Part shown: positions 7,175-54,562 of the stretch, in pieces
Position numbering within the stretch: position 1 is the first letter of the stretch
Layout of the letters: every line of letters begins with the position of its first letter
Assembly (NCBI GenBank): GCA_029884335.1
Contig: JAOUIA010000006.1
Span: forward strand, 20,882-84,881
DNA: 64,000 nt
DNA from: Betaproteobacteria bacterium
Lineage (GTDB): Bacteria; Pseudomonadota; Gammaproteobacteria; Burkholderiales; Casimicrobiaceae
Direction: 5' to 3'
Translations under genes and position numbers: made by a program
The notes under the pieces: model-generated
The model's input: the letters and a program-made list of their open reading frames with translations, nothing else
What the model was told of the DNA's origin: nothing
Database searches by the model: none

Positions 7175-7181
7175 CGGCGCG

Positions 7182-7187
7182 ATTATA
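7182..7187 (-). promoter_or_regulatory. TATAAT -10 box 7 bp before mutS start
   Basis: Minus-strand TATAAT followed by CGCGCCG and then the mutS ATG (7174). Spacing is the same as for the ribosomal oxygenase gene at 3689, which suggests that both transcripts are leaderless. Confidence 0.6.
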
Positions 7188-7504
7188 CGAAGGCCGCGGG
7201 GATTCACCGGGCGGCGGCGCTCATGTCCATGAAATGCAAAGGGAATCGCGCGCCGACCCGGGGTCCTGGGCGCGGCGCGGCGCGACGTGGTCGCGGCGAG
7301 GCGCTGTCGCGTTTGCGCCAACGCGTCGTAGCCCACAACGGCGGACGTCCCGCCGAAAGCGTCGCTTTCCCCGCCGTGCGCGCTCCGCCCTCGCCTGGCC
7401 CGCGTGTAACATCGGACGGCAATGAGCGAGACCTTCCGACTCTTCGTGCCGGCGGCGTCCTGGTGGCCGCATGGGCGCGCCGGGACTTCCCGCGCGGAGG
7501 CGCG
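7188..7504. other. Divergent intergenic region mutS / polysaccharide deacetylase, no gene seen
   Basis: About 320 bp without a credible gene. Open frames on both strands are high-GC artefacts with no recognisable product. A TGTAACATCGGACGG stretch near 7406 and a GCGGAGG ribosome site just before the GTG at 7505 are the only signals noted. No -24/-12 (sigma-54) promoter was recognised although one might be expected for a PrsR-controlled locus. Confidence 0.5.
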
Positions 7505-8353
7505 GTGAACGCGCGAGCGCCGAACGCAGTCATCAACGCGTTGACGGTCGACGTCGAGGACTACTTCCAGGTCTCGGCGTTCGAGCCCCACATGAGCCGC
7601 GATGCGTGGGACGCGCAGCCGCGGCGCGTCGAAGCGAACGTGGATCGCATCCTGGGCATGCTGGCCGAGCACGGCGCACGGGCGACGTTCTTCACGCTGG
7701 GCTGGCTGGCCGAGCGGCACCCGGCGATGGTCCGCCGCATCGTCGACGGCGGGCACGAGCTCGCCAGCCACGGCCACTCGCACGGACGAGCGACGGATCA
7801 GCGGCCCGTGGAGTTCCGCGCCGACATCCGGCGCGCCAAGGCCGTTCTCGAGGAGATCGGCGGCTGCGAGGTGCGCGGCTACCGCGCGCCGAGCTTCTCG
7901 ATCGGCCCCGCCAATCGCTGGGCCTTCGATTGCATTGCGGAGGCGGGCTACCGCTACTCGTCGAGCGTCTATCCGATCCGCCACGACCACTACGGCGCGC
8001 CCGACGCGCCCCGCGTGCCCCACGAGGTCGCCGCCGGGCTCGTCGAGTTGCCCGTCGCCACGGTGCGCCTGTGGAACGCGAACCTGCCGGCCGGCGGCGG
8101 CGGCTACTTCCGCCTGCTCCCCTACGTGCTGTCGCGCTGGTCGCTCGCGCGGATCAACGAGGTCGAGGGCCGGCCGGCGATCTTCTACTTCCACCCCTGG
8201 GAGCTCGATCCGGAGCAACCGCGCGTCCGCGGGCTCTCCGCGAAAGCCCGCTTCCGCCACTACCTCAATCTCGACCGGACGCAGCCGCGGCTCGCCCGGC
8301 TGATGCGCGACTTCGCCTGGGGCCGCGTCGACGACGTCTTCGCGTGCCGCTAG
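7505..8353 (+). CDS. Polysaccharide deacetylase, PEP-CTERM/XrtA-locus type
   Basis: A 282-residue NodB-fold deacetylase. The opening [18 protein letters not shown] is the hallmark of the deacetylases that sit in PEP-CTERM/exosortase A exopolysaccharide loci (VDVED holds the catalytic Asp pair). The zinc motif is [11 protein letters not shown], followed by [12 protein letters not shown] and a late [14 protein letters not shown]. The GTG start at 7505 has GGAGG 4 bp ahead and gives the usual length; no ATG suits. It probably removes acetyl groups from N-acetylated sugars of the exported polymer. It heads the exopolysaccharide block but is 526 bp from the next gene. Confidence 0.85.
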
Positions 8354-10374: not shown

Positions 10375-12474
10375 GTGACCGAAGCAACGTTCGCCTCCAT
10401 CGGAGTGGCCAGCTATGCGGTCGCGGCCGCCGGCTGGCTGCTGCTCGCCGGCCGCGCGGCGACCGGGTTCGACGCGAGCCCGCGTCGCGCGCTCCTGCTC
10501 GGCGCGGCGCTGTCCACCGCAGCGTGGGCCGCGCTCGCCGCGTTCCACGTGCGCAGCGGCGCGTCGTGGGCGCTCGGCGGAGCGAACGCCGCCGACGTGC
10601 TGCGTTATGCGTGCTGGTTCGCTTTCGTGGCGACGTTGCTTCAAGGCGACGCCAAGGCCGGTGCGGCGTCCGGCGCCGTGCGCTGGCTCGCCTGGACGGC
10701 CGCCTCGCTCGCCGTTGCCGCGCTCGCGATGTTCGACGGCGTGCACCATCCGCGCGGGCTCCTCGAGGGCGACGCGCGCCCCGGCGCGGCCCTGAACGTC
10801 GGGCTCGCCGTCGCGGGCCTCGCGTTCGCCGAGCACCTGTATCGCCGCACGCACCCGCAGTCGCGCTGGCGCATCAAGCCGCTCGCAGCCGCGCTGGTGG
10901 CGACGTTCGGATTCGACCTCTACGTGTTTGCCGACGCGCTGCTGTTCGCCCGCGTCGATCCCGACGCCTGGGTGGCGCGCGGCGCGGCTCACGCGCTCGT
11001 CATTCCGCTGGTCGTCGCCGCGACGTCGCGCAGCGCCGGCTGGACGGCCGAGCTGCACCTGTCGCGCCAGGCGATCCTGCAGTCGTTCGCGCTGCTCTTC
11101 GCGGTGGGCCTGCTTCTCGCCATCGCGGCGGCGGGCTACCTCGTGCGCTACGTCGGCGGCGACTGGGGCCGCGTCATGCAGATCGTGGTCCTCTTCGCGG
11201 CGGTGGTGTTCGTCGTCGCGGCGGTGTCGTCGGGGAGCTTCCGCTCGTGGTTGCGCGTGTTCGCCGGCAAGCACTTGTTCCCCTATCGCTACGACTACCG
11301 CGAGGAGTGGCTGCGGTTCACGCGCACGCTCGCATCCGACAGCGCGGTGGTCGGGATGCAGGAGCGCGCGATCCGCGCGCTCGCCGACCTGGTCGAGAGC
11401 ACGGGCGGCGCGCTGTGGCTGGCCGACGAGCGCGGCGTCCTTCGCCCGGCGGCCCGGCTCAGCGCACCCACCGTCGACGGAACGCTCGCCCCCGACGCGC
11501 CGCTGCCCGCGTTTCTCGCCCGCACCGGCTGGATCGTGTCGCTGCCCGAGCTCGCGGCGCAGCCCGGGCGATACGCGGGGCTCGAAGTGCCCGAGTGGCT
11601 GCGCACGCTGCCCGGCGCGTGGCTGGTCGTCCCGCTGCCGGTGGGCAGCGACGTCGTCGGCTTCGTCGTGCTGCTCGACCCGCGCTCGCCGGTGGAGATC
11701 GACTGGGAGGTGCGCGACCTCCTGAAGGCGGCGGCGCGCGCGGCCGCGTCGTACCTGCAGCAGCTGCGCGCCACCGAAGCGCTGGTCGAGGCGCGCAAGT
11801 TCGACGCGTTCAACCGCATGTCGGCGTTCGTCGTGCACGACCTCAAGCACCTCGTGGCGCAGCTCACGCTCATGCTGCGCAACGCGGAGCGCCACCGCGA
11901 CAACCCCGAGTTCCAGCGCGACATGCTGCAGACGGTCGCCAACGTCGCCGGGCGCATGAATGCGCTGATGCTGCAGTTGCGCGCCGGGGGGGCGCCGGTG
12001 GAGCCGGCGGTCTACGTCGACCTCGCGCAGCTCGCCCGCCGCGTCGCTGCCGCGAAGGCCGGCGCGGGCCGCGTCGAGCTCGCTCTCGAAGCGGGCGCGG
12101 CGGCGCTGTGCCACGAGGCGCGGATCGAGCACGTGATCGGCCACCTGCTGCAGAACGCGCTCGACGCGACGCAAGGCGGCGGCGCGGTGCGGCTTGCGGT
12201 GCGCCGCGATGGCGCCCACGCCGTCGTCGAGGTCGAGGACGGCGGCGTGGGAATGACCGCGGACTTCGTGCGCGAGCGCCTGTTCAAGCCGTTCGAGACG
12301 ACCAAGCCTGCGGGGATGGGCATCGGCGTCTACGAGAGCCGGCAGTACGTCGCGTCGCTGGGCGGGAGCGTCGAGGTCGACAGCGTCGAGGGGCGCGGGA
12401 CGCGCGTCGCCGTCCGACTGCCTGCCGCCGACTCGGCGGCGGCGCAGCCGCGGCGAGTGGAGCAGGTGGCGTGA
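10375..12474 (+). CDS. prsK: XrtA-system sensor histidine kinase PrsK
   Basis: A 699-residue membrane kinase. About eight to nine membrane segments fill residues 1-300, a GAF-like sensor follows (GGALWLADERGVLRPAARLS, about residues 340-460), then the dimerisation/phosphoacceptor helix FVVHDLKHLVAQLTLMLRNA, and a HATPase with N-box LLQNALDAT, DGGVGMT and GMGIGVYESRQYV. This order is that of PrsK, the kinase found with PrsR beside exosortase A loci. The GTG at 10375 is preferred to a TTG 18 bp upstream. prsR follows 93 bp later; the pair is presumably one operon controlling exopolysaccharide and PEP-CTERM genes. Confidence 0.88.
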   Translation: MTEATFASIGVASYAVAAAGWLLLAGRAATGFDASPRRALLLGAALSTAAWAALAAFHVRSGASWALGGANAADVLRYACWFAFVATLLQGDAKAGAASGAVRWLAWTAASLAVAALAMFDGVHHPRGLLEGDARPGAALNVGLAVAGLAFAEHLYRRTHPQSRWRIKPLAAALVATFGFDLYVFADALLFARVDPDAWVARGAAHALVIPLVVAATSRSAGWTAELHLSRQAILQSFALLFAVGLLLAIAAAGYLVRYVGGDWGRVMQIVVLFAAVVFVVAAVSSGSFRSWLRVFAGKHLFPYRYDYREEWLRFTRTLASDSAVVGMQERAIRALADLVESTGGALWLADERGVLRPAARLSAPTVDGTLAPDAPLPAFLARTGWIVSLPELAAQPGRYAGLEVPEWLRTLPGAWLVVPLPVGSDVVGFVVLLDPRSPVEIDWEVRDLLKAAARAAASYLQQLRATEALVEARKFDAFNRMSAFVVHDLKHLVAQLTLMLRNAERHRDNPEFQRDMLQTVANVAGRMNALMLQLRAGGAPVEPAVYVDLAQLARRVAAAKAGAGRVELALEAGAAALCHEARIEHVIGHLLQNALDATQGGGAVRLAVRRDGAHAVVEVEDGGVGMTADFVRERLFKPFETTKPAGMGIGVYESRQYVASLGGSVEVDSVEGRGTRVAVRLPAADSAAAQPRRVEQVA

Positions 12475-12567
12475 GCCCGCAGGACCGCCCCGAGGGCGAG
12501 CAAGCCCCGCAGCGCGTAGCGCGGAGGGTAGTCCGATGAACCGTCGTCCGCACCGGGAGGCCGCTGC

Positions 12568-13914
12568 ATGGCGGACGCGCGCAAGCCGCTGCTGATCGTC
12601 GAGGACGACCCTGCGCTGCGCAAGCAGATGCAGTGGGCGTTCGACGCCTACGAGACCGTCGTCGCCGGCGACCGGCCAGGCGCGATTGCCGCGCTGCGCC
12701 GCCACGAGCCGGCGGTGGTGACGATGGACCTCGGCCTGCCGCCGCGGCCCAACGACGCCAGCGAGGGCCTCGCGCTGCTGGAGGAGATGCACGCGCTGGC
12801 GCCCGCCACCAAGGTCATCGTGCTGACCGGACAGGAGGATCGCGCGCACGCGCTGCGCGCCATCGCGCTCGACGCCTACGACTTCTGCACCAAGCCGTTC
12901 GAGCCGGAGGTGCTCGGCCACGCGATCGCGCGCGCGTACCGGCTCTACGAGCTGCAGGCGGAGAACGCGCGGCTGCAGGCGTCGTTGCCGGCGCGCTCGA
13001 TGGCGGGCCTCGTCACGCTCGATCCGGGCATGCAGCGCGTGTGCCGCACCGTAGAGAAAGTGGCGCCGACGTCGGCGACCGTGCTGGTGATCGGCGAGTC
13101 CGGCACCGGCAAGGAGCTGCTCGCGCGCGCGCTGCACGAGCAGTCGCAGCGTGCGGGCGCCGGCTTCGTGGCGATCAACTGCGCGGCGATGCCGGAGAGC
13201 GTGCTGGAGGCCGAACTGTTCGGCTACGAGAAGGGCGCGGTCGCCGGCGCCGTGCAGCCGGCGCCGGGCAGGATCGAACTCGCGCACGGCGGCACGCTGT
13301 TCCTCGACGAGGTCGGCGACCTGCCGCCCGCGCTGCAGGCGAAGCTGCTGCGCGTGCTGCAGGACCGCGCGCTCGAGCGCCTCGGGTCGCGCAAGGAGAC
13401 CGCCGTCGACGTGCGCGTCGTGTGCGCCACCCGGCAGGGCCTCAAGGAGCGCATCGCCGCCGGAGGGTTCCGCGAGGACCTCTACTATCGGCTCGCCGAG
13501 ATCGTGGTCGAGGTGCCGCCGCTGCGGACTCGGCACGGCGACGCCGCGCTGCTGGCGCACGCGCTGCTGCGGCGCTTTGCCGCGGAGCACCGCCGCGGCA
13601 CGATGACGCTGATGCCGGACGCGATCGCGGCGATCGAGGGCCACGCGTGGCCGGGCAACGTCCGCGAACTGGAGAACGCAATCAAGCGCGCGGTCATCAT
13701 CGCGGACGGGCCGACGGTCTCGGGCGCCGACCTCGGCCTCGTTCACGCGCCGAGCGAGGCGCTCAACCTGCGCGAAGTGCGCGAGGCGGCGGAACGCGAG
13801 GCTGTACCGCGCGCCCTCGGCCGCGCCAACGGCAACCTGACCCGCGCCGCCGAGATGCTCGGCGTTTCGCGCCCGACGCTGTACGATCTCATCCACCGCT
13901 TCGGACTGAAGTGA
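12568..13914 (+). CDS. prsR: PrsR-type sigma-54 response regulator with degenerate GAFTGA loop
   Basis: A 448-residue NtrC-like regulator: receiver domain (Asp54 in VVTMDLGLPP, Lys in CTKPFEPE), AAA+ domain with Walker A GESGTGKE (about residue 176), Walker B GGTLFLDEVGDLP and R-finger region, and a Fis-type helix-turn-helix (NLTRAAEMLGVSRPTLYDLI). GGGAGG lies ahead of the ATG. The L1 loop that normally reads GAFTGA and touches sigma-54 reads GAVAGA here (residues 223-228; codons GTC GCC where TTC ACC is expected). All other ATPase motifs are intact. It may fail to activate sigma-54, or act in another way. Confidence 0.88.
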   Translation: MADARKPLLIVEDDPALRKQMQWAFDAYETVVAGDRPGAIAALRRHEPAVVTMDLGLPPRPNDASEGLALLEEMHALAPATKVIVLTGQEDRAHALRAIALDAYDFCTKPFEPEVLGHAIARAYRLYELQAENARLQASLPARSMAGLVTLDPGMQRVCRTVEKVAPTSATVLVIGESGTGKELLARALHEQSQRAGAGFVAINCAAMPESVLEAELFGYEKGAVAGAVQPAPGRIELAHGGTLFLDEVGDLPPALQAKLLRVLQDRALERLGSRKETAVDVRVVCATRQGLKERIAAGGFREDLYYRLAEIVVEVPPLRTRHGDAALLAHALLRRFAAEHRRGTMTLMPDAIAAIEGHAWPGNVRELENAIKRAVIIADGPTVSGADLGLVHAPSEALNLREVREAAEREAVPRALGRANGNLTRAAEMLGVSRPTLYDLIHRFGLK

Positions 13915-23514: not shown

Positions 23515-25014
23515 ATGGAATTTACCATAAAAAGCGGTAGCCCCGAGAAGCAGCGCAGCGCCTGCGTCGTCGTCGGCGTGTTCGACAACCGCAAGCTGTC
23601 GCTGTCGGCCGAATTGATCGACCGCGCCAGCAACGGCTACATCGGCGAGATCATCCGCCGCGGCGACATGGAGGGCAAGCTCGGGGCCACGCTGCTGCTG
23701 CACAACGTGCGCGGCACGCTGGCCGACCGCGTGCTGCTCGTCGGCCTGGGCAAGGAGCGCGACTTCCGCGACAAGGAGTTCCGCGCGGCGGTGCGCGCGG
23801 CGGTCAAGCTGCTCAACGAGACCGGCTCCTACGAGGCGGTGATCTACCTGACCGAGGAGAAGGTCAAGCGCCGCGAGGTTGGCTGGCGCGTCGAGCACGC
23901 GGTGGTCGTGGCGATGGAGGCGGTCTACCGCTTCGACCAGATGAAGAGCCAGCCGACCGAGGTCCGCCGTCCCCTGCGCAAGCTCACGCTCTCCGTGCCG
24001 CAGCGATCCGACCTCGCGGCCGGCGAGAAGGCGGCGGCGCGCGGGCTCGCCATCGCGCACGGCGCCGACCTCGCGCGCGATCTCGGCAACCTGCCGGCCA
24101 ACGTGTGCACGCCCGGGCTCCTGGGCGAGCGCGCTCTGGAACTCGCGCAGCAGTTTCCCGCGCTCAAGGTGCAGGTCCTCGAGCGCGCCGAGATCGAGGC
24201 GCTGGGCATGGGCTCGTTCCTCTCCGTGTCGGCCGGCACCGAGGAGCCGCCGCGCTTCATCGTCATGGAGTACATGAACTCGCCGCGGAAGGCGCGCCCG
24301 TTCGTGCTGGTCGGCAAGGGCATCACGTTCGACAGCGGCGGCATCTCGATCAAGCCCGCGCCGGACATGGACCACATGAAGTTCGACATGTGCGGCGCGG
24401 CGGCGGTGTTCGGGACGCTGCGCGCCATCCTCGAGCTCGCGCCGCCGCTGTCGGTGGTGGGGCTCGTGCCCGCGTGCGAGAACCTCCCCTCGGGCAAGGC
24501 GACGAAGCCGGGCGACATCGTGAAGAGCATGTCGGGCCAGACCATCGAGGTGCTCAACACCGACGCCGAGGGCCGGCTCATCCTGGCCGACGCGCTCACC
24601 TACGCCGAGCGCTACGAGCCGGAGGCGGTCGTCGACGTCGCCACGCTGACCGGCGCGATGGTGATCGCGCTGGGTCACGTCGCCTGCGGCGTGTTCAGCA
24701 ACAGCGACGCACTGGCGCGCGAGCTGGTCGCGGCCGGCGAGGAGGCCTGCGACCGCGGCTGGCAGCTGCCGCTGTGGGACGACTACCACGAGGGGCTGGC
24801 GAGCAACTTCGCCGACTTCGCCAACGTCGGCGGGCGCGCGGGCGGCAGCATCGTCGCTGCGTGCTTCCTGTCGAAGTTCGCGCGGAAGTACGACTGGGCG
24901 CACCTCGACATCGCCGGCATCTCGCACCGCGACGGCAAGGAGAAGGGCGCGACCGGCCGGCCGGTGCCGCTGCTGACCACGTGGCTGCTGGCGCAGGACA
25001 ACGCCCCGGCATGA
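23515..25014 (+). CDS. pepA: Leucyl aminopeptidase (cytosol aminopeptidase)
   Basis: A 499-residue M17 aminopeptidase that removes N-terminal residues and in many bacteria also binds DNA. The two-metal catalytic domain shows GKGITFDSGGISIKP, DMCGAAAV, the signature NTDAEGRLILADALTYA and ATLTGAMVIALGH. Size equals the E. coli enzyme (503). The ATG at 23515 opens MEFTIKSGS; an earlier start would overlap the promoter leader. holC follows 88 bp later, the conserved pepA-holC order. Confidence 0.96.
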   Translation: MEFTIKSGSPEKQRSACVVVGVFDNRKLSLSAELIDRASNGYIGEIIRRGDMEGKLGATLLLHNVRGTLADRVLLVGLGKERDFRDKEFRAAVRAAVKLLNETGSYEAVIYLTEEKVKRREVGWRVEHAVVVAMEAVYRFDQMKSQPTEVRRPLRKLTLSVPQRSDLAAGEKAAARGLAIAHGADLARDLGNLPANVCTPGLLGERALELAQQFPALKVQVLERAEIEALGMGSFLSVSAGTEEPPRFIVMEYMNSPRKARPFVLVGKGITFDSGGISIKPAPDMDHMKFDMCGAAAVFGTLRAILELAPPLSVVGLVPACENLPSGKATKPGDIVKSMSGQTIEVLNTDAEGRLILADALTYAERYEPEAVVDVATLTGAMVIALGHVACGVFSNSDALARELVAAGEEACDRGWQLPLWDDYHEGLASNFADFANVGGRAGGSIVAACFLSKFARKYDWAHLDIAGISHRDGKEKGATGRPVPLLTTWLLAQDNAPA

Positions 25015-25102
25015 AACATCCCCTCGCACGGGCTGCGCTTGCTGCCCCCCGGCGGCCGGCCGGTGGCTTCGGACGGGCCTGCGCCACTGACGTGCGCACG
25101 CG

Positions 25103-25531
25103 ATGACCGTCATCGATTTCTACACGCACGTCGACGACCCGATCGCCGTGGCCGCGCGCCTGGTGGCGAAGGCCTGGCCCGCGCACCCGGCCGTGCGCAT
25201 AGTGACGCCCGACGCGGATGCGACCGAGCGCCTCGACCGGCTGCTGTGGACGGCGCCGGCGACCGGTTTCCTGCCGCACTGCCGCCTGTCGAGCGCGCAC
25301 GCGGACGCGACGCCGATCATCGTCGACCACGTGGCGGAGCACGACGGGCCGGCGTGCGTGCTGATCAACCTGGCGCCAGCGCCGCCGCCGTTCTTCAGCC
25401 GCTTCGAGCGGCTCGCCGAGGTCGTCGGCTCCGACGACGAAGCGGTGGCGGCCGGCCGCGAACGCTACCGCTACTACCGCGAGCGCGGCTACGAATTGCG
25501 CGCGCACAACGTCGCTGCCCTTCGACGCTGA
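25103..25531 (+). CDS. holC: DNA polymerase III subunit chi
   Basis: A 142-residue clamp-loader accessory subunit that bridges the psi subunit and single-strand binding protein. The opening TVIDFYTHVDDPIAVAARLVAKAW and the later WTAPATGFLPHCRLSS...TPIIVDH and VLINLAPAPPPFFSRFERLAEVVG are characteristic of HolC. The ATG at 25103 is in frame with no better alternative. It lies between pepA and a low-complexity protein gene that starts 4 bp after its stop. Confidence 0.92.
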   Translation: MTVIDFYTHVDDPIAVAARLVAKAWPAHPAVRIVTPDADATERLDRLLWTAPATGFLPHCRLSSAHADATPIIVDHVAEHDGPACVLINLAPAPPPFFSRFERLAEVVGSDDEAVAAGRERYRYYRERGYELRAHNVAALRR

Positions 25532-25535
25532 TCCC

Positions 25536-26879
25536 ATGCCCACCGCGCGCGAACTGCTCGAGCAGGCCGATGCGCTGATGCGGCGCAAGCAGGACGCCGC
25601 CGTGCCCCGCATCGAAGGCGGGGAGTCGCTGCAGGGGCCGACGACCGACTCGGCATTCGTGCCGACCCACGCGCCGGCGCCCGCAACGCCGTCGGCGCCC
25701 CCGTCCCCGACGGCACGCGGCGATGCGCCGCCGCCGGGTACGGCAGCGGCCGCGGTGTATTCGGCCATGCGCTGGAGCGCGCCCGCCGCGCCTGCGGGCG
25801 TGACGACGACGTCGCCGGCATTTGCGCCGCCGCCGCTCGTCTCGCCGCGCACGATTCAGCGCGAGCCGATCGCTCCGTCGGTGGCGCGCACCGCGCTGCC
25901 GGTCGATCCCACCGAGCCCCCGGCGTTCCCCGCTCCCGCGCCGGCGCTTGCGCCGGCGAGCGTGATCGAGCAGGACTTCCCGACGCTCGTCGATGCCGTC
26001 GATGAGGAAGCGATCGGCGAGCACCCGGACGACGTTCCGCTGCTTACGGACGCCGTCGATCCGCTGTCCGACGAGCCGGTTCTCGAGGATCTCGATGAGC
26101 CGTCGGTGTGGACGCCCACGCTCGGAGGCGCGACGACGGTGCGCGTCGGCGCTCCGTCGCAGTCGCCCGCGGTGCCCGTCGCGCCCCCGTCGCCGCCGAG
26201 CGGCCGCGATCCGCTTGGCCTCGACCGCCCGCCGCCGGGATTCGTTCCCGCGCCGGCGGCGCAGTGGACCGACCGCGAGCCGCCGGCGGACGGCGTACCG
26301 TCGCCCGAGCGCGTTGCGGAAACGCCTTCGGCGCCCGGCACCGCTGAAGTTCCTGTCCCGCCGGCCCCCGTCGAGGTTCCACGTCCGGTCGTCGCCGAAG
26401 CCCCGGCCGCTGTCGTCGTCGAGGTTTCTCCTGCGGTCGTCATCGACGTTCCGCCGCCGGTCGTCGTCGAGGCTCCGCCTCCGGTCGGCGAATCGCCGCA
26501 GTCCGCGGTTGTCGAGGCGGAGGCCGTCGAGGCGGAGGTTGTCGAGGCGGAGGTCGTCGAGGCGGAGGTCGTCGAGGCGGAGGTCGTCGAGGCGATGCCG
26601 GTGGCCGAAGCGGCGCCGGCGCACGCCGCGCTGGCGCCGCTCGACGACGCTCGCGTGCGCGAGATCGCCGAGGAGATCGGCATGCAGGTGCTGCAGCGGA
26701 TCGACATCTTCACCGACACCGAGCTGCGCGCGAGGCTCGGCGAGCGGCTGAAGCCGGTCGTCGACCGTGTGAGCGTCGACCTCGTCACGGCGATCAATCA
26801 GCACGTCGGCGAGTTGCTGCGCGCCTACGTCGCCGAGGCGATCGAGCGCGAGATCGACGGCTGGCGCAACCGCCAGTAG
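25536..26879 (+). CDS. Low-complexity Pro/Ala/Val-rich protein with conserved ends, holC-linked
   Basis: A 447-residue protein with three parts: an N-terminal helix (PTARELLEQADALMRRK), a disordered Pro/Ala/Val-rich middle of about 330 residues, and a helical C-terminal domain (about 370-447: REIAEEIGMQVLQRIDIFTD...HVGELLRAYVAEAIEREID). Two short acidic motifs, FPTLVDAVD and VPLLTDAVD, resemble those in the DUF2486-type proteins found after holC in Burkholderia; this link is from memory. No signal peptide or membrane segment. A 15-bp DNA tandem repeat encodes VVEAE pentapeptides before the C-terminal domain. Function unknown. Confidence 0.75.
   Translation: MPTARELLEQADALMRRKQDAAVPRIEGGESLQGPTTDSAFVPTHAPAPATPSAPPSPTARGDAPPPGTAAAAVYSAMRWSAPAAPAGVTTTSPAFAPPPLVSPRTIQREPIAPSVARTALPVDPTEPPAFPAPAPALAPASVIEQDFPTLVDAVDEEAIGEHPDDVPLLTDAVDPLSDEPVLEDLDEPSVWTPTLGGATTVRVGAPSQSPAVPVAPPSPPSGRDPLGLDRPPPGFVPAPAAQWTDREPPADGVPSPERVAETPSAPGTAEVPVPPAPVEVPRPVVAEAPAAVVVEVSPAVVIDVPPPVVVEAPPPVGESPQSAVVEAEAVEAEVVEAEVVEAEVVEAEVVEAMPVAEAAPAHAALAPLDDARVREIAEEIGMQVLQRIDIFTDTELRARLGERLKPVVDRVSVDLVTAINQHVGELLRAYVAEAIEREIDGWRNRQ
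26511..26597 (+). repeat. 15-bp tandem repeat inside the holC-linked gene
   Basis: About 5.7 copies of GTCGAGGCGGAGGTC, encoding repeated Val-Glu-Ala-Glu-Val. The last three full copies (26541, 26556, 26571) are identical, which suggests recent slippage and in-frame length variation between strains. Confidence 0.9.
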
Positions 26880-26931
26880 GATGTAGCGCGCCTCCGGGAG
26901 GGGCCGTCGGGCCGGCGCGTATCATTTGCGC

Positions 26932-27381
26932 GTGCCCGCCTTTGCCCAGCCGTCGCTCCGTGCCGTGCGCCCCGATCCGGGGCGCGCGCACGCGTTGCTG
27001 TCCGGCCGCGGCGCCCGCGCGACGCGTGCGCGGATCGACGTGCTGGCGGTGCTGCTGGCGACCGGCGACGCGCTATCGCACCACGACGTGGAACGCTGCC
27101 TGCCGCGCGGCCACGGCATCGACCGCGTGACGCTCTACCGGGTGCTCGACTGGCTGACCGCGCAAGGGCTCGCGCACAAGGTCGCAGGCGACGACCGCGT
27201 GTGGCGCTACTCGGCCGCGGGGCACGCGGCCGGCGCGCACGCGCACTTCCAGTGCAGGGACTGCGGCCGCGTGGTCTGCCTCGACGGGGCGCGCGTGCCG
27301 GCCATCCCGCTGCCGGCGGGCTTCCGTCGCAACGAGGTCGAAGTCACCGTGAAGGGCACTTGCGCTGCCTGCCGCGCGTGA
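26932..27381 (+). CDS. Fur-family metalloregulator (Zur-like)
   Basis: A 149-residue Fur-fold repressor. The N-terminal winged helix covers residues 15-90 (RGARATRARIDVLAVLLATGDALSHHDVERCL and the recognition helix GIDRVTLYRVLDWLTAQGL), and the dimer domain has a structural Cys4 zinc site, Cys108/Cys111 (CRDC) and Cys144/Cys147 (CAAC), with HAHFQ in front. It begins an apparent unit with an ABC transporter, an exported protease-like protein and DUF3299, so zinc control is inferred. A TATCAT box ends 6 bp before the GTG at 26932, so the message may be leaderless; a TTG at 26926 is the alternative start. Confidence 0.85.
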   Translation: MPAFAQPSLRAVRPDPGRAHALLSGRGARATRARIDVLAVLLATGDALSHHDVERCLPRGHGIDRVTLYRVLDWLTAQGLAHKVAGDDRVWRYSAAGHAAGAHAHFQCRDCGRVVCLDGARVPAIPLPAGFRRNEVEVTVKGTCAACRA

Positions 27382-27423
27382 CCGCGGGCCGCAGTCGCGC
27401 CGTCTGCGAGTGGACTTGCAGCC

Positions 27424-28071
27424 ATGTTCGAGCTGACCGATGTCGAGCACCGGTACGGGACCGTGCGCGCCCTCGCGGTGCCGTCGTGGCGTGCACAGGC
27501 CGGCGAGCAGTGGCTGCTCGCGGGAGCGTCGGGCAGCGGCAAGTCGACGCTGCTCCACATACTCGCGGGACTGACGACGCCGAGCGCCGGCCGCGTCGTG
27601 GTCGCAGGTCAGGATCTCGCTGCCCTTGCGGGCGGCGCGCGCGACCGCTGGCGCGGCCGCCACGTCGGCGTGGTGCCGCAGAAGCTGCATCTGATCGGCG
27701 CGGTGAGCGTGTTCGACAACCTGCGGCTGGCGTGCACGATGGCGGGGCTGCGTGTCGAAGAGGCGCGCATCCGCGCGCTGCTCGCGGCCGTGCAGGTCGC
27801 CGACCTCGCGCAGCGGCGGCCGGGGGAGCTCTCGCAGGGGCAGGCGCAGCGCGTGGCGATCGCGCGCGCGGTCGTCAACCGGCCCGCGCTGCTGCTCGCC
27901 GACGAACCCACGGCGAGCCTCGACGACGCGAGCGCAGCGGCGGCATTGGAACTGCTGCGAACGCAGGCGCGCGAGGCGGGTGCGACGCTCGTCGTCGCCT
28001 CGCACGACGCGCGCGTCAGGCCGCTGTTGCCGCGCACCTACCAGCTGTCCGAAGTCGCGGCGGCGGCATGA
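27424..28071 (+). CDS. ABC transporter ATPase, LolD/MacB family
   Basis: A 215-residue nucleotide-binding subunit with Walker A GASGSGKST (about residues 36-44), Q-loop VVPQKLHLIG, signature LSQGQAQR, Walker B ALLLADEPTASLD and the switch SHDAR. It belongs to the LolD/FtsE/MacB branch that works with FtsX-type permeases to move substrates within the periplasm or extract lipoproteins rather than import. It is 42 bp after the Fur-like gene and 109 bp before its permease; a palindromic repeat fills that gap. Confidence 0.9.
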   Translation: MFELTDVEHRYGTVRALAVPSWRAQAGEQWLLAGASGSGKSTLLHILAGLTTPSAGRVVVAGQDLAALAGGARDRWRGRHVGVVPQKLHLIGAVSVFDNLRLACTMAGLRVEEARIRALLAAVQVADLAQRRPGELSQGQAQRVAIARAVVNRPALLLADEPTASLDDASAAAALELLRTQAREAGATLVVASHDARVRPLLPRTYQLSEVAAAA

Positions 28072-28077
28072 TGCGTG

Positions 28078-28172
28078 CCCTCACCCCCAGCCCCTCTCCC
28101 GGCGTACGCCGGGAGAGGGGAGTTTTTCACGCCCCTCTCCTGCGCCAGTGGGAGAGGGGCCAGGGGTGAGGG
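28078..28172. repeat. Palindromic repeat (second family) inside the ABC operon
   Basis: CCCTCACCCCCAGCCCCTCT (from 28078) is mirrored by GAGGGGCCAGGGGTGAGGG (to 28172). Inside is a perfect small hairpin, TCTCCCGGCG-TA-CGCCGGGAGA (about 28095-28116), followed by AGTTTTT. A related element lies at 54441-54562. It separates the ATPase and permease genes and could uncouple their expression. Confidence 0.8.
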
Positions 28173-28180
28173 AAGACGCG

Positions 28181-29398
28181 ATGGGCCCCACCCGCCTCGC
28201 GCTCGCCTACGCGCGGCGCCGCCCGCTCGCGACGCTGCTCGTCGTCGCGCTCGCCGCCATCGGCACGGCGGTCGTCGTGCTGACACTCGCCGTCGGGCGC
28301 GAGCTCGCGACGCGGCTCGACCGCGACGCGCAAGGCATCGACCTCGTCGTCGGCGCGAAGGGCAGCCCGCTGCAGCTCGTGCTCGCGGGCGTCTACCACG
28401 TCGACGTGCCGCCGGGGAACATCCCGCTCGCGGCGCTCTCCGAGCTGCGCGCGAACCCGATGGTCGCCGGCGCGATCCCTCTGGCGCTCGGCGACAGCGT
28501 GCGCGGCTTTCGCATCGTCGGCACCGAGCACGCGCTGGTCGCGCACTACGGCGCGCAGCTGGCGCAGGGCCGGCAGTGGGCGAAGCCGATGGAGGCGGTG
28601 CTCGGCAGCGAAGTCGCGCGCGCGACGGGCCTCGGTGTCGGCGCGAAGTTCACCGGCTCGCACGGCCTCTCCGAAGGCGGCGGCGGCCACGACGAGGCGT
28701 CCTACGCAGTCGTGGGCGTGCTGGCGCCGACCGGGCGCGTCGTCGACCGCATGGCGCTGACGTCCGTCGCCAGCGTGTGGGCAGTGCACGACGCGCACCA
28801 CCCGCCAGAGGCTGCCGAGGAGCACGACCACGACAAGGCGGAGGGCGGGCCGGCGCGCGAGGTGACGATGGTGCTGGTGCGCTACGCGGGGCCGCTCGCG
28901 GCCGCGAGCCTCCCGCGCGCGATCAACAGCGGCAGCAACTACATGGCCGCCTCGCCGGCGTACGAGATGGCGCGCCTGCTCACCGTGTTCGGCGTGGGAC
29001 TCGACCTCGTGCGCGCGTTCGCGGCGCTGCTGATCGTCGCGTCGGCGGCGATGCTGTTCGTCGCGCTCGCGCAGGCGCTCGACGAGCGCCGCTACGACCT
29101 CGCGATCCTGCGCGCACTGGGCGCGAGCCGCGGCCAGGTCGCGTGGGTTCTGCTCGCCGAGTCGATGACGCTCGCGCTCGCCGGCGCGGCGCTCGGCTGG
29201 GTGATCGCGCAGGTCACGCTCGCGCTGGCAGGAACGTGGCTCCCCGCCGCGGCGCCGCTCGCCGCGACGGCGTGGACGCTGCGCGGCAACGAGGGCTGGA
29301 TCGTGGCAGGGGCGGCGCTGGCCGGCGCGCTTGCTGCGGCGTGGCCGGCGTGGCAGGCGTACCGTCTCGACGTCGCGGCCACGCTCGCCGACGGCTGA
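28181..29398 (+). CDS. ABC transporter permease, MacB/FtsX type, with periplasmic His-rich loop
   Basis: A 405-residue permease: one N-terminal membrane segment (LLVVALAAIGTAVVVLTLAV), a large periplasmic domain (about 45-270) and three C-terminal segments with the FtsX pattern (FVALAQALDERRYDLAILRALGASRGQVAWVLL). The periplasmic domain holds SHGLSEGGGGHDEAS and a His/Glu/Asp cluster at about residues 203-219 (HDAHHPPEAAEEHDHDK), a likely metal-binding loop. The ATG at 28181 lies just outside the repeat; a GTG 15 bp upstream falls in it. Next to a Fur-like regulator, a role in periplasmic zinc handling or metalloprotein trafficking is inferred. Confidence 0.88.
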   Translation: MGPTRLALAYARRRPLATLLVVALAAIGTAVVVLTLAVGRELATRLDRDAQGIDLVVGAKGSPLQLVLAGVYHVDVPPGNIPLAALSELRANPMVAGAIPLALGDSVRGFRIVGTEHALVAHYGAQLAQGRQWAKPMEAVLGSEVARATGLGVGAKFTGSHGLSEGGGGHDEASYAVVGVLAPTGRVVDRMALTSVASVWAVHDAHHPPEAAEEHDHDKAEGGPAREVTMVLVRYAGPLAAASLPRAINSGSNYMAASPAYEMARLLTVFGVGLDLVRAFAALLIVASAAMLFVALAQALDERRYDLAILRALGASRGQVAWVLLAESMTLALAGAALGWVIAQVTLALAGTWLPAAAPLAATAWTLRGNEGWIVAGAALAGALAAAWPAWQAYRLDVAATLADG

Positions 29399-29403
29399 TC
29401 GCC

Positions 29404-30480
29404 ATGGTCCGCGCCGCCGCCTGCCTGCTGCCGCTAGCGTGGTGTTGCGCCGTGGCCCCGCTGGCGGCGGAGGTCGGTCGATCGGCGGCGGTGCTGTGGC
29501 CTGGAGGAGCGCGCGATGTCGCCCTCGCGCAGGCGTGGCAGCGGGCCGGCGCCGGCGACGCCGCGGGCGCGCGGTCGCTGCTGGCGGGCGTCGCCGAGTC
29601 GGAGGAGAAGGGCCTGCTCGCGCGGCTGCTGGCCGGCGACGACACGCTTCCCGCCGCCGAGCTGCGCTTCGCGCCGCGGGCGGCGCGCACTTTGCTGCGC
29701 ACGGCACGCAATGGCGTGCCGATCGTCGACGCGACCATCAACGGCGTCGCTGTTGAGTTGGGTGTCGACACCGGCGCCGGCCTGTCGGTGATCACGGAGT
29801 CGACCGCGCGTCGCGTGGCCGCGCGCAGCCTGGACGGCCCGCGGCCGAAGGTGCTCGACAGCCTCGGCGAGGGCGTGGAGGCACGCCTCGCGATCGTCGA
29901 TCTCGCGCTGCCCGGCGTTGAGTTCCGCGGGCTGCCCGTGCTGGTGATGCGCGACGAGAATCTCTCGGCACGCGTGCTCGGCGTGACGCTGTTCGCGTTC
30001 GACGGCCTGCTGGGCTGGAACGCGCTCGGCCTCGCCCGCGTCGAACTCGACTTCGATCGCGGCGAGATGACGCTTCGGCCGACGCGCGCGCCCTGCGACG
30101 GCCGCAACCTGTGGAGCGTGGGCTCGAAGCCGCTGGTGGAAGCGGCGGTCGACGGAGTCCCCACGCTCGCGCTGGTCGACACCGGGGCGAGGCGCAGTTG
30201 GCTCGTTGCAGCTGGAGGGGCCGGCGCGGAGGCTGCGCCGGAGAACTCGCGCCTGGTCGCAGGCGCGAGCGGTGCCCGGGTCGTCGGCGTGCGCACGCGC
30301 GAGGACGTCCGCGTCGCCGCGGCCGGGCGCATCCTGGCGATGCGCACGCTGGATGAGCGGCCGGCCCGGGATCGCGTGCCGCTGCAGAGGGCGACGCTCG
30401 GCATGGACTTCGTGGGCCGGGGCGCTGCAGTGCTCGATCGCGGCTGCGGCGAGTTCGCCCTGTCTCCCGCGCAGCCCTGA
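29404..30480 (+). CDS. Exported retropepsin-like aspartic protease-domain protein with two DTG motifs
   Basis: A 358-residue protein with a signal peptide (RAAACLLPLAWCCAVAPLAA) and a helical linker to about residue 85. Two pepsin-like lobes follow: the first with VELGVDTGAGLSVITE (catalytic-type DTG) and a later GLLGWNALG flap-like turn, the second with ALVDTGARRSWL and TLGMDFVG. Both lobes keep D-T-G, so a single chain could form a complete pepsin-like active site. It starts 5 bp after the permease stop, so it belongs to the ABC cassette. Proteolysis in the periplasm is inferred. Confidence 0.8.
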   Translation: MVRAAACLLPLAWCCAVAPLAAEVGRSAAVLWPGGARDVALAQAWQRAGAGDAAGARSLLAGVAESEEKGLLARLLAGDDTLPAAELRFAPRAARTLLRTARNGVPIVDATINGVAVELGVDTGAGLSVITESTARRVAARSLDGPRPKVLDSLGEGVEARLAIVDLALPGVEFRGLPVLVMRDENLSARVLGVTLFAFDGLLGWNALGLARVELDFDRGEMTLRPTRAPCDGRNLWSVGSKPLVEAAVDGVPTLALVDTGARRSWLVAAGGAGAEAAPENSRLVAGASGARVVGVRTREDVRVAAAGRILAMRTLDERPARDRVPLQRATLGMDFVGRGAAVLDRGCGEFALSPAQP

Positions 30481-30573
30481 GCCCTCGGCGTGACCGGCGC
30501 GGGTATACTGGCCCCTTCGTGGCCGGGAAGGTCGCGACGTTGTGCCCGCTTGCCGCCGCACGGAGACGCCCGC

Positions 30574-31134
30574 ATGAGCTCCCGACTCTCCCTCTCGCCG
30601 CTTCCCCGCCTCGCGGCTGCCGTCGCGCTCGCCGTCGCGACCGCCGCGGGCGCCGTCACGACCGTGCCCCCCGGCGGGCTGCCGTCGGCAACCGAGTTCT
30701 CCGCGCAGATCCTCCCGGAGCGCGCGGGCGTGGTGTCGTGGCGCACGCTCGCGCAGGTCCAGCCGGTGAAGCAGGGCAACAAGATGGTTCCCGAGTTCAG
30801 CAAGGACATCCTCGCGCTCGACGCCAAGCAGACGCGGGTGCAGGGATTCATGATCCCGCTCGACGCCGGCGAGAAGCAGAAGCGCTTCCTGCTGACCGCG
30901 GTGCCGCCGCACTGCTCGTTCTGCCTGCCTGCGGGCCCGGACTCCGTCGTCGAGATCGTGGCGAAATCGCCGGTGCGCTACACGTTCGATCCCATCGTGG
31001 TGTCGGGCAAGTTCGCCGTGCTGCGCGACGACAGCGCGGGCCTCCTCTACCGCCTCTCCGACGCGACGCAGGTCGAGGTCGCGCAACTCGCGCCCGACGC
31101 GCCGAAGGGACTCGTTCCCGCGCCGGCGAAGTAG
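30574..31134 (+). CDS. Exported DUF3299 protein
   Basis: A 186-residue secreted protein: signal peptide to about residue 27 (LAAAVALAVATAAGAVT), then the DUF3299 core with VQGFMIPLDAGEKQKRFLLTAVPPHCSFCLPAGPDSVVEI, whose PHCSFC pair of cysteines with a histidine is a plausible metal site. DUF3299 genes occur with MacB-like ABC transporters and Zur-controlled operons (for example, from memory, the PA4063-PA4066 operon of Pseudomonas aeruginosa). A TATACT hexamer about 70 bp before the ATG may give it a promoter of its own. It is the last member of the probable zinc cassette. Confidence 0.85.
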   Translation: MSSRLSLSPLPRLAAAVALAVATAAGAVTTVPPGGLPSATEFSAQILPERAGVVSWRTLAQVQPVKQGNKMVPEFSKDILALDAKQTRVQGFMIPLDAGEKQKRFLLTAVPPHCSFCLPAGPDSVVEIVAKSPVRYTFDPIVVSGKFAVLRDDSAGLLYRLSDATQVEVAQLAPDAPKGLVPAPAK

Positions 31135-31159
31135 GCGCGAGGGCCGTCGCCGAGCGATC

Positions 31160-31870
31160 ATGACGGGCCGGCACCCTCCGCTGCTGCTGCTTCCGGGGCT
31201 CGTCAACGACGCGCGCGTCTACGCGGGCGTTCGCGGGCGCCTTGCGGGAGAGGCGGAATGCGTCGACGCCGACCTCACGACGCACGACACGACGGCCGGG
31301 CTGGCCGACGACGTCCTCGCGAAGGCGCCGCAGCGCTTCGCCCTCGCCGGGCTGTCGATGGGGGGCTACTGTGCACTCGAGATCGCGCATCGAGCGCCGG
31401 ATCGCGTCGTGGCGCTGGCCCTGATCGACACTTCCGCGCGGCCTGACGGCGACGAGGCCAAGGCGAACCGCGAGAGGCAGATCGCGCGGGTTCGCGCCGG
31501 CGAGCTCGACGCCGTCGTCGACGAGCTGTTGCGCAAGTGGGTGCACCCGTCGCGGCTCGCCGACGCCGCGGTCGCCGACGTCGTGCGCGCGATGGCGCGC
31601 TCGCACGGGCCGGCGGTCTTCGAGCGGCAGCAGCGGGCGATCATGAGCCGTGCCGACAGCCGCCCGCGACTCGCGGCGATCCGTTGCCCGACCGTCGTGC
31701 TCTGCGGCGCCGACGATGCGATCATGCCGCGCGAGATCCACGCGGAGCTCGCCGCCGGCATCCCCGGCGCGACGCTCGTGGCGGTGCCCGAGTGCGGCCA
31801 CCTGGCGCCCCTCGAGCGTCCCGAAGCGGTCGCGGCCGCGCTCGCCGAACTTCTGGCGAAGGCGCGCTGA
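31160..31870 (+). CDS. Alpha/beta-hydrolase
   Basis: A 236-residue cytoplasmic hydrolase. Nucleophile elbow GLSMGGYC (Ser about residue 70), acid in VLCGADDAIMPRE, and catalytic His in VPECGHLAPLERPEAV. The short N-terminus PPLLLLPGLVNDARVY fits the MhpC/BioH-like esterases. The substrate cannot be told. It is 25 bp after the DUF3299 gene and may be co-transcribed with it; valS follows under its own promoter. Confidence 0.85.
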   Translation: MTGRHPPLLLLPGLVNDARVYAGVRGRLAGEAECVDADLTTHDTTAGLADDVLAKAPQRFALAGLSMGGYCALEIAHRAPDRVVALALIDTSARPDGDEAKANRERQIARVRAGELDAVVDELLRKWVHPSRLADAAVADVVRAMARSHGPAVFERQQRAIMSRADSRPRLAAIRCPTVVLCGADDAIMPREIHAELAAGIPGATLVAVPECGHLAPLERPEAVAAALAELLAKAR

Positions 31871-31879
31871 CGCCGCAAC

Positions 31880-31909
31880 GCCCGGGCACGCAGCCCGGGC
31901 CGCTATAAT
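31880..31909 (+). promoter_or_regulatory. Hairpin and TATAAT promoter ahead of valS
   Basis: A perfect 7-bp hairpin (GCCCGGG 31880-31886 / CCCGGGC 31894-31900) is followed directly by TATAAT (31904-31909). The hairpin may end the hydrolase transcript; the -10 box would start valS mRNA near 31916, some 40 bp before the chosen ATG. Confidence 0.6.
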
Positions 31910-31956
31910 TTCGAGCTTTGCACGCACAGTCGCGCGCTCGCGCGGCTCGCCAGGTC

Positions 31957-34782
31957 ATGGAACTCGCCAAGAGCTTCGAGCCGCACGCGATCGAGGAGAA
32001 GTGGTACCCGCGCTGGGAGTCGGCCGGGTACTTCAGGCCGTCGATGCGCGCGGGCGCCGAGGCCTACTGCATCCAGTTGCCGCCGCCGAACGTCACCGGC
32101 ACGCTGCACATGGGCCACGCGTTCCAGCAGACGCTGATGGACGTGCTGATCCGCTACCACCGCATGCGCGGCGACGACACGCTCTGGCAGCTCGGCACCG
32201 ACCACGCGGGCATCGCCACCCAGATCGTCGTCGAGCAGCAACTGAAGGCGGAAGGGAAGTCCCGCCACGACCTCGGCCGCGCGAAGTTCAACGAGCGCGT
32301 CTGGGCGTGGAAGGAGGAGTCGGGCGGCGCGATCACGCGCCAGATGCGCCGGCTCGGCACCTCGGGCGACTGGTCGCGCGAGCGCTTCACGATGGACGCG
32401 GGGCTCTCCGCCGCCGTGGTCGAGACGTTCGTGCGCCTCTTCGAGGACGGACTCATCTACCGCGGCAAGCGGCTGGTCAACTGGGACCCCAAGCTCGGCA
32501 CCGCGGTGTCGGACCTCGAGGTGGACAGCGAGGAGGAGCAGGGGAAGCTGTGGGAGATCCGCTATCCGCTCGCCGACGGATCGTCGTCGCTGGTCGTCGC
32601 GACGACGCGGCCCGAGACGATGCTCGGCGACACCGCGGTCGCGGTGAACCCGCAGGACGAGCGTTACGCGCATCTCGTGGGCAAGGCGGTACGCCTGCCG
32701 CTCGCCGATCGCGACATCCCGATCGTGGCCGACGACTACGTCGACCGGGAGTTCGGCACCGGCTGCGTGAAGATCACGCCGGCGCACGACTTCAACGACT
32801 GGGCGATCGCGCAGCGCCACGCTCTGCCGGCGCTGCCGATCCTCGACCTGGAGGCGAAGGTCAACGACAACGCGCCGGCGCGCTACCGCGGCATGGATCG
32901 CTACGTCGCGCGCAAGGCGGTGCTGGAGGACCTGCGGGCTGCGGGACTCCTCGTGTCCGAGAAGCCGCACAGGATGGTCGTTCCGCGCTGCGGGCGCACC
33001 GGCGAGGTGGTCGAGCCGATGCTCACCGACCAGTGGTTCGTCGCCACGGCGAAGCCCGCGCCTGCCACGCACCCGTACTTCCCCGGCAAGTCGATCCAGG
33101 ACCTCTGCCTCTCTGTGGTCGGCGAGGGCCTGCCGCCGGGCGCGCCGGGCAGCGGCGAGAAGGTGCGCTTCGTGCCCGAGGAGTGGCTGGCGACGTACCT
33201 GCACTGGATCCGCAACCTGCAGGACTGGTGCATCTCGCGGCAGCTGTGGTGGGGCCACCAGATCCCGGCGTGGTACGACGACGAAGGCAACGTCCACGTC
33301 GCCCGCGACGAGGCTACGGCGCGCGCGAAGGCGCGCGCGAAGCTGGGCCGCGAGAGCGCCACGCTGCGCCGCGACGAGGACGTGCTCGACACCTGGTTCT
33401 CCTCGGCGCTGTGGTGCCACTCCACGCTCGGCTGGCCGGCCGACACCGCGGAGCTGCGCACGTTCCTGCCGTCGTCGGTGCTGATCACCGGCTTCGACAT
33501 CATCTTCTTCTGGGTCGCGCGCATGATCATGACGACGACCTACTTCACCGGCCGCGTCCCGTTCCGCGACGTCTACATCAACTCGATCGTGCGCGACGAG
33601 GAGGGCCAGAAGATGTCGAAGTCGAAGGGGAACGTGCTCGATCCCCTCGACCTCATCGACGGCGTGGACCTCGAGACGCTGGTGGCCAAGCGCACGGCGA
33701 ACATGATGGACCCGCGGCAGGCGGAGGGCATCGCGAAGCGCACGCGCAAGCAGTTCCCCGACGGCATCCCGTCCTTCGGCGCCGATGCTCTGCGCTTCAC
33801 GTTCGCGAGCCTCGCCACGTTCGGCCGCACGCTCAACTTCGACCTCTCCCGCTGCGAGGGCTACCGCAACTTCTGCAACAAGCTGTGGAACGCGACGCGC
33901 TTCGTGCTGATGAACGTCGAGGGGAAGGACGTCGGCCTCGACGCGGGAGCGCCGGCGACGCTGTCGCTGGCCGACCGCTGGATCGTCGCGGAGCTGCAGG
34001 ATGCCGAGAGAGAGATCCGCGCGCAGCTCGACGCCTACCGCTTCGACCTCGCCGCGAAGGCGCTCTACGAGTTCGTGTGGAACGCCTACTGCGACTGGTA
34101 CGTCGAGCTCGCCAAGGTCGACCTCGCGCGCGGCGACGAGGCGGCGCAGCGCGGCACCCGGCGCACGCTGGTGCGCGTGCTGGAGGCGATCCTGCGGCTC
34201 GCGCACCCGTTCATCCCGTTCATCACCGAGGAGCTGTGGCAGTCCGTCGCGCCGCTTTCCGGGAAGACCGGCGCGACGATCTCGCTGCAGCCGTTCCCCT
34301 CGCCGGATGCCGGCAAGCGCGACCCGGTTGCGACAGCGCAGGTCGCGATGTTGCAGGCTCTGGTCGACTCCGTGCGCTCGCTGCGCAGCGAGATGGGGCT
34401 CGCGCCCGGGCAGAAGGTCGGTGCGTTCGTGGCCGGCGACACGCGCGGCGTCGGCGAGCTCGCCGACTACGCGAAGGCGCTCGCGCGGCTGTCCGACGTC
34501 GAACTCGTCGCCGAGCTGCCCTCGCGCCACGCGCCGGTGCAGGTCGTCGGCAGCTCGCGCGTGATGCTCGACGTGGCCGTCGACCTGGCCGCGGAACGCG
34601 AGCGCGTCGGCAAGGAAATCGCGCGCGTCGAGGGCGAGATCGCGAAGGCGCAAGCCAAGCTCGCCAACGAGGGCTTCGTGGCGCGCGCGCCGGCGGCGGT
34701 CGTCGAGCAGGAGCGCGGGCGCCTCGCTTCCTTCCGCGCCACGCTCGTCGAGCTACGGGAGCAGCGCCAGCGCCTGGGCTAG
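31957..34782 (+). CDS. valS: Valyl-tRNA synthetase
   Basis: A 941-residue class I synthetase. It starts [21 protein letters not shown]; the HIGH-type motif is [14 protein letters not shown] and the KMSKS motif is [14 protein letters not shown]. The editing domain (about 190-340, [20 protein letters not shown]), the tRNA-anticodon helical domain and the C-terminal coiled coil ([23 protein letters not shown]) are all present. A TTG 39 bp upstream is in frame but adds residues not typical of ValS. In related bacteria valS often follows holC and its neighbour; here a metal cassette sits between them. Confidence 0.97.
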
Positions 34783-54440: not shown

Positions 54441-54562
54441 GCCCTCACCCCCGGCCCCTCTCCCGCCTGACGGCGGGCGAGGGGAGAGATGTACCGGGTT
54501 AGCCGCGCTTTCCTCCCCTCGCCCCGCGGCAGCGGGGAGAGGGGCCGGGGGTGGGGGGAGGT
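54441..54562. repeat. Palindromic repeat (second family), copy 2
   Basis: CCCTCACCCCCGGCCCCTCT at 54442 is mirrored by AGAGGGGCCGGGGGTGGGGG near 54537-54556, with inner hairpins CCCGCC-TGA-CGGCGGG (about 54469-54480) and CCCCGCGGCAGCGGGG (about 54522-54537). It is homologous to 28078-28172 and lies between mog and the EamA gene, touching the mog stop. Confidence 0.8.

Follow-up and report, generated by a model that had tools for sequence, protein, structure and literature searches.

The window analysed here is a stretch of 64,000 nucleotides on contig C80 of its source genome (3.66 Mb, 120 contigs, completeness 95.6%). On its + strand, positions 26932–31134 carry five genes that encode a Zur-like regulator, an ABC ATPase, an FtsX-type permease, a two-lobed retropepsin and a DUF3299 protein, and the five-gene observation of the initial annotation is confirmed. 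On the 5′ side the cassette is preceded by pepA, holC and then one Pro/Val-rich gene without a Pfam match, and on the 3′ side it is followed by an alpha/beta hydrolase gene and then valS.

The regulator gene (26932–27381, + strand) starts with a GTG codon at 26932, a TTG at 26926 being a possible alternative, and its Fur-family product matches FUR at 40.8–40.9 bits (cut-off 23.1) and has the two CxxC pairs of a Cys4 site. The ATPase gene (27424–28071, + strand) is of the LolD/MacB type; its product matches ABC_tran at 115.4 bits, and its top NCBIfam model is LolD, at 157.6 bits and so below that model's cut-off of 307.75. Between it and the permease gene lies a palindromic REP-like element (28078–28172, no strand assigned) with a predicted RNA fold of -85.7 kcal/mol (z -9.2). 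Its inner hairpin (28091–28120), with a T run behind it, resembles a terminator and could end the transcript; an Rfam scan of 25000–32500 gave no match.

The permease (28181–29398, + strand) is of the FtsX/MacB type. By sequence, its PDB hits comprise LolF along with further FtsX-type permeases. In NCBIfam it matches ADOP and LolCE models, every one below cut-off, and a database protein 97% identical to it carries PF02687 (FtsX) and PF12704 (MacB_PCD). The metal-binding-like loop that had been pointed out in this protein is indeed present as a His/acid-rich stretch containing HDAHHPPEAAEEHDHDK. In an alignment of 126 permeases, which replaced a regular-expression count that missed 65 of 130, the loop has 9.4% His and 28% acidic residues, as against 2.2% His elsewhere; at least one His occurs in 110 of the loops and at least three in 48, and the window permease has four. 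The DUF3299 protein (30574–31134, + strand) is predicted to be exported, matches PF11736 at 26.2 bits (cut-off 22) and contains PHCSFC within PPHCSFC; a CxxC motif is found in 59 of the 64 DUF3299 proteins that were extracted. The PA4066 structure (4hsp) is its first match by family profile (E 6.4e-6) and also the first by fold for the predicted model (E 2.7e-6), there with a TM score of only 0.42/0.51.

The remaining gene (29404–30480, + strand) begins 5 bases past the permease stop codon, and its product is predicted to be an exported aspartic protease with whole catalytic motifs. It matches Asp_protease_2 at 58.5 bits (cut-off 24.3), while the TIGR02281 score of 36.1 does not reach the cut-off of 57.95, and a putative signal peptide was read by eye. 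The two DTG motifs, at residues 122–124 and 259–261, have Asp residues that are invariant in 14 proteins, and the layout of two lobes in one chain is pepsin-like, with the DTGA of retropepsins; the predicted fold is that of clan AA. A putative endopeptidase of Bacteroides fragilis (9iy9), on which we found no paper, is 15% identical to it. Passages on RloA of Pseudomonas, from an rlo operon, describe another exported retropepsin-like protease with DTGA (PMC12239564); in RloA two one-lobed chains form a dimer, whereas the window protein has both lobes in one chain and is encoded in a zinc-type operon.

A conserved core and a variable slot

A search of 41 genomes detected the permease in 6 of the 22 that belong to the genus, source genome included, and an order-wide search detected it in 124 of 399 genomes. 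By score and neighbours the matches split into group 1, which is like the window, and group 2, at about 65–170 bits. Wider stretches were taken at group 1 and some group 2 matches, together with the best 80 of at least 573 named relatives; 41 of these 80 were assigned to Bacteroidota or kin by record title. In 122 of the 130 distinct group 1 loci, a count that includes the window, a DUF3299 gene follows the permease gene in the same orientation, which bears out the pairing of a MacB-like transporter with DUF3299 given in the initial annotation; in the other eight it was not seen there, some of these being cut by a contig end or having DUF3299 elsewhere. Of 129 distinct loci from relatives, 125 have an ATPase match above threshold. 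The grouping of ATPase, permease and DUF3299 is thus more than chance, since the three recur together in most of the 130 distinct loci. A plasmid search with the permease returned 104 records, all of them distant matches and none spanning more than 80% of the query.

The flanks of these loci often hold further genes of interest. Counted as matches over set thresholds in the available flanks of 57 distinct loci of the order, Fur-family genes occur in 25, COG0523 genes in 28, TonB receptor genes in 16, DksA and SOD genes in 6 each and DAHP synthase genes in 3. At least one Fur-family, COG0523, DksA or TonB receptor gene is nearby in 45 of the 57, and so a zinc starvation reading fits; among the best 80 of at least 573 named relatives, a zinc marker lies in the flanks of 27. 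One COG0523 protein from the relatives scores above the ZigA cut-off. The DksA encoded at one locus (L027) retains one of four cysteines, judged against what we take to be the four-cysteine zinc-finger motif, and an Fe-type SOD gene is found among the genes of the sister operons; the idea of the retropepsin as a replacement enzyme is in line with such replacement genes. We conclude that the Zur-like repressor, the MacB-type ATPase and permease and the DUF3299 protein belong to a conserved set of genes, probably an operon for zinc starvation.

The retropepsin lies outside this set. Of the families proposed to occur together, four of the five form the recurring set; the order of all five is not conserved, and the five genes as one conserved unit are ruled out, because the retropepsin is present at the operon in only 1 of 130 distinct group 1 loci (and in 1 of 22 genomes of the genus). 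The interval that it occupies, between permease and DUF3299, is variable. The gap from the permease to the DUF3299 match is under 330 bases in 84 of the 130 loci; in 28 the slot holds a small exported protein whose cysteines are conserved and whose end resembles CGMKH, in 6 a PepSY protein, in 4 a longer gap without assigned content and in 1 the retropepsin, and at the remaining loci DUF3299 is not in view. Two of the small Cys/His proteins matched no Pfam or NCBIfam family when scanned, and two of the PepSY proteins match PF13670. As the content of the slot varies by lineage (nothing, Cys/His, PepSY or retropepsin), the retropepsin appears to be an accessory rather than a part of the machine.

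A search for the retropepsin across the order found it in 6 of 399 genomes including the source, with three full-length relatives in one other genus and two partial ones, and a pattern scan of genome contigs gave 108 stretches, none of which was confirmed. Zinc genes were not seen beside the relatives from the other genus, and in one genome (G272) a retropepsin relative and a group 1 permease are present at separate places. A JGI contig of 13,231 bases probably repeats the trio of permease, retropepsin and DUF3299; the retropepsin sibling there stops early, 14 residues past the second DTG. In GC content the window gene is similar to its neighbours, and a recent foreign origin is not supported by composition, despite its having the lowest codon score of ten genes (-1.35; the ATPase gene has -1.29).

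The location between holC and valS had been read as an insertion. The cassette does separate the two genes, and the same interval also hosts the operon in four relatives (L020, L021, L022 and L112; the named records of L110 and L111 are matches to L021 and L022), so that its presence there is not new to this species. In these nearest relatives the stretch includes a DAHP synthase gene (L020, L022 and L112) and a TonB receptor gene (L020 and L021), both of which are absent from the window operon. When those of L020 were searched for in the source genome, the best match to the DAHP synthase was just 40% identical, and the TonB barrel had no match in a search run without a positive control.

The regulator and possible zinc control

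Besides the operon regulator, the source genome encodes one other Fur-family protein, a canonical Fur (155.3 bits). The best of nine listed NCBIfam models for the operon regulator is Zur (PRK11639), with 31.7 bits against a cut-off of 167, and because this cut-off is not reached we call it Zur-like. A tree was built from 28 Fur-family proteins of 12 genomes, with no named Zur reference among its rows; there the operon regulator falls in a clade of 11 (support 96/92) made up of 8 operon regulators and 3 proteins from group 2 genomes. This clade stands apart from Fur and from a PerR/Irr-like group, the group names being given by reading and the tree tool having warned of long branches. On the question of Fur or PerR versus Zur, then, the regulator groups with the regulators of zinc operons and not with Fur or the PerR-like proteins.

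In 20 of 34 relatives, the stretch 5′ of the operon regulator gene contains a palindrome, ATGCAACNNNGTTGCAT, with at most four mismatches, and in 19 of these 20 the shuffle p is 0.01 or less; regulator matches below 90 bits, loci with identical 60 upstream bases, and L087 and L092 (fewer than 100 upstream bases) were left out of this sample. The 14 misses are an upper figure, since a spurious alignment start put a few windows, such as that of L022, in the wrong place. A Zur box was looked for, as the initial annotation had suggested: none was found 5′ of 26932, where the best site scores 2.0 bits, and a good one, with a single mismatch and 19.1 bits, precedes a ZIP transporter gene elsewhere in the source genome (C83:9473), starting 24 and ending 7 bases before the start codon. 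The holC–valS relatives L020, L021, L022 and L112 gave no box either (6–7 mismatches, the L022 window being misplaced), and the pattern is not in excess genome-wide (37 matches, 34 in the control). With no box at the window operon, none at the four nearest relatives and no genome-wide excess, we only infer zinc control of this operon.

It could then be argued that the regulator is another Fur-family sensor, of iron, manganese or peroxide, and that the operon follows that signal. The missing box, the low Zur model score and the long branches of the tree speak for such a sensor, yet the genome has a separate canonical Fur, the regulator shares a clade with those of zinc operons, and COG0523/ZigA, DksA and TonB genes neighbour the operon in its relatives, so we consider this very unlikely. 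The same clade and neighbours back the zinc-starvation reading that had been proposed for the cassette.

Comparison with Zur-regulated systems

The core resembles ZrgABCDE of Vibrio and PA4063–PA4066 of Pseudomonas aeruginosa, in which, as described in passages of the respective reports, neighbouring but separate genes encode an ATPase and an FtsX/MacB-type permease with DUF3299 beside them, and which are Zur-regulated (PMC9817125; PMC11481552). The direction of transport is disputed, with uptake described for Vibrio (PMC9817125) and export of pyochelin-cobalt proposed for P. aeruginosa (PMC11481552). Unlike these systems, the window operon has its own regulator gene and a retropepsin, and its permease belongs to a different group, being 27–36% identical to the full-length group 2 matches examined. 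At the group 2 loci examined, the ATPase and permease genes are accompanied by DUF3299 and ZrgA genes; ZrgA (PF10986, DUF2796) was found next to the permease in all four group 2 genomes and in none of seven group 1 genomes, source included. The group 1 module is a ZrgA-less sister of Zrg/PA4063–PA4066 that is held by Proteobacteria and Bacteroidota.

The Zur regulon of Cupriavidus metallidurans, as passages of three reports describe it, comprises ZupT (ZIP), COG0523 GTPases, a TonB receptor and dksA1 (PMC11340326; PMC13192273; PMC6103462). These are gene kinds shared with the relatives' operons and with the ZIP gene that has a box in the source genome, where COG0523 (CobW_C) was not found; the same passages name no operon of ABC transporter, DUF3299 and retropepsin.

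Possible roles of the protease

We favor, at a probability of about one half, a likely zinc-starvation core operon with a predicted exported aspartic protease, specific to this lineage, in its accessory slot. Low zinc would free the Zur-like regulator from DNA, and the ABC pair would serve as an ATP-driven mechanotransmitter of the MacB type that moves a metallophore or a carrier of zinc on the periplasmic side, in whichever direction, with the DUF3299 protein acting alongside. The slot would host an exported accessory protein that depends on lineage (none, small Cys/His, PepSY or retropepsin). Because an aspartic protease needs no metal ion, the likeliest part for the retropepsin, if exported, is periplasmic proteolysis once zinc enzymes fail. 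ShyB of Vibrio cholerae, a zinc-starvation cell-wall endopeptidase that is active in low zinc and resists chelation (PMC6381278), offers a precedent for a hydrolase of this kind, although from a different family; among the papers listed in literature searches, none ties a retropepsin or aspartyl protease to zinc starvation or Zur. The stronger proposal, in which a one-chain retropepsin that needs no metal has become the periplasmic protease of a zinc-starvation operon under Zur control, with its place in the slot where other lineages keep Cys/His or PepSY proteins, we regard as doubtful.

The retropepsin gene may instead be a passenger in a tolerant site of the zinc operon, contributing nothing to the response to zinc starvation, and the real system would then consist of the other four. 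This has somewhat less than even odds in our estimation: its rarity (a single case both among the 130 distinct loci and among the 22 genomes of the genus), the other-genus relatives without zinc genes in view and the shortened JGI sibling are weighed against a start codon only 5 bases past the permease stop in the same orientation, a slot occupied by other exported proteins in 34 loci, a trio that probably recurs on the JGI contig, whole catalytic motifs and a GC content like that of the neighbours. A passenger gene and a retropepsin with a role in the zinc response are about as likely as each other.

Two further roles would give the protease a more specific task. It might clear or trim the peptide part of a metallophore or metal complex exported by the module, as passages of PMC11481552 propose export of pyochelin-cobalt for PA4063–PA4066, with which the operon has the MacB-type pair and the DUF3299 family in common; the window has no ZrgA, and we think this unlikely. 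The zinc recovery suggested in the initial annotation comes close to a scheme in which the retropepsin salvages zinc by degrading periplasmic zinc proteins, the metal being taken by the permease loop or DUF3299. A predicted exported protease gene within a zinc-type operon and the His enrichment of the loop would suit it, but no more than 48 of the 126 loops reach three His, the zinc-protein substrates are hypothetical, and passages of PMC11481552 report no evident zinc binding by PA4066, so that salvage in this form seems improbable.

The analysis sets apart a ZrgA-less sister group of Zrg/PA4063–PA4066 whose slot reveals small exported proteins. Such slot proteins, of which one kind gave no hit in Pfam or NCBIfam for the members scanned, are candidates for proteins that work together with the permease and DUF3299. 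Should the retropepsin be part of the response, it would act as a substitute protease, free of metal, under zinc shortage.

Repeats and neighboring genes in the window

A long palindromic, REP-like element occurs in two copies in the window, one at 54442-54557 and the other within the operon at 28078-28172, where it includes a terminator-like hairpin. Between holC and the regulator gene lies a Pro/Val-rich gene (25536-26879) that contains VEAEV repeats and is conserved in its C-terminal part; a Pfam scan of it gave no match.

Gene content of related loci

In relative L020 the gap between the regulator and ATPase genes is occupied by a DAHP synthase gene (6838-8016), which is also found at this place in L022 and L112; all three relatives are from the window's genus or close to it. 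L020 also carries a TonB-receptor gene (11223-13286) 3′ of the DUF3299 gene, in which an internal stop separates the plug piece from the barrel piece. At 28 of the 130 loci, L050, L051, L055, L069, L113, and L128 among them, the gap between the permease and DUF3299 genes encodes small, predicted exported proteins whose cysteines are conserved and whose end is CGMKH-like; Pfam and NCBIfam scans of two members gave no family match.

Among the matches listed, Bacteroidota (Algoriphagus, Pedobacter, and others; loci L122-L188) also have the ATPase-permease-DUF3299 trio, and the flanks of these listed loci are mostly without a zinc marker gene (Fur-family, COG0523, DksA, or TonB receptor).

A Zur-type palindrome at a ZIP transporter gene

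Elsewhere in the window's own genome (stretch L191; G000, contig position C83:9473), a Zur-type palindrome lies directly ahead of the start of a ZIP zinc transporter gene.
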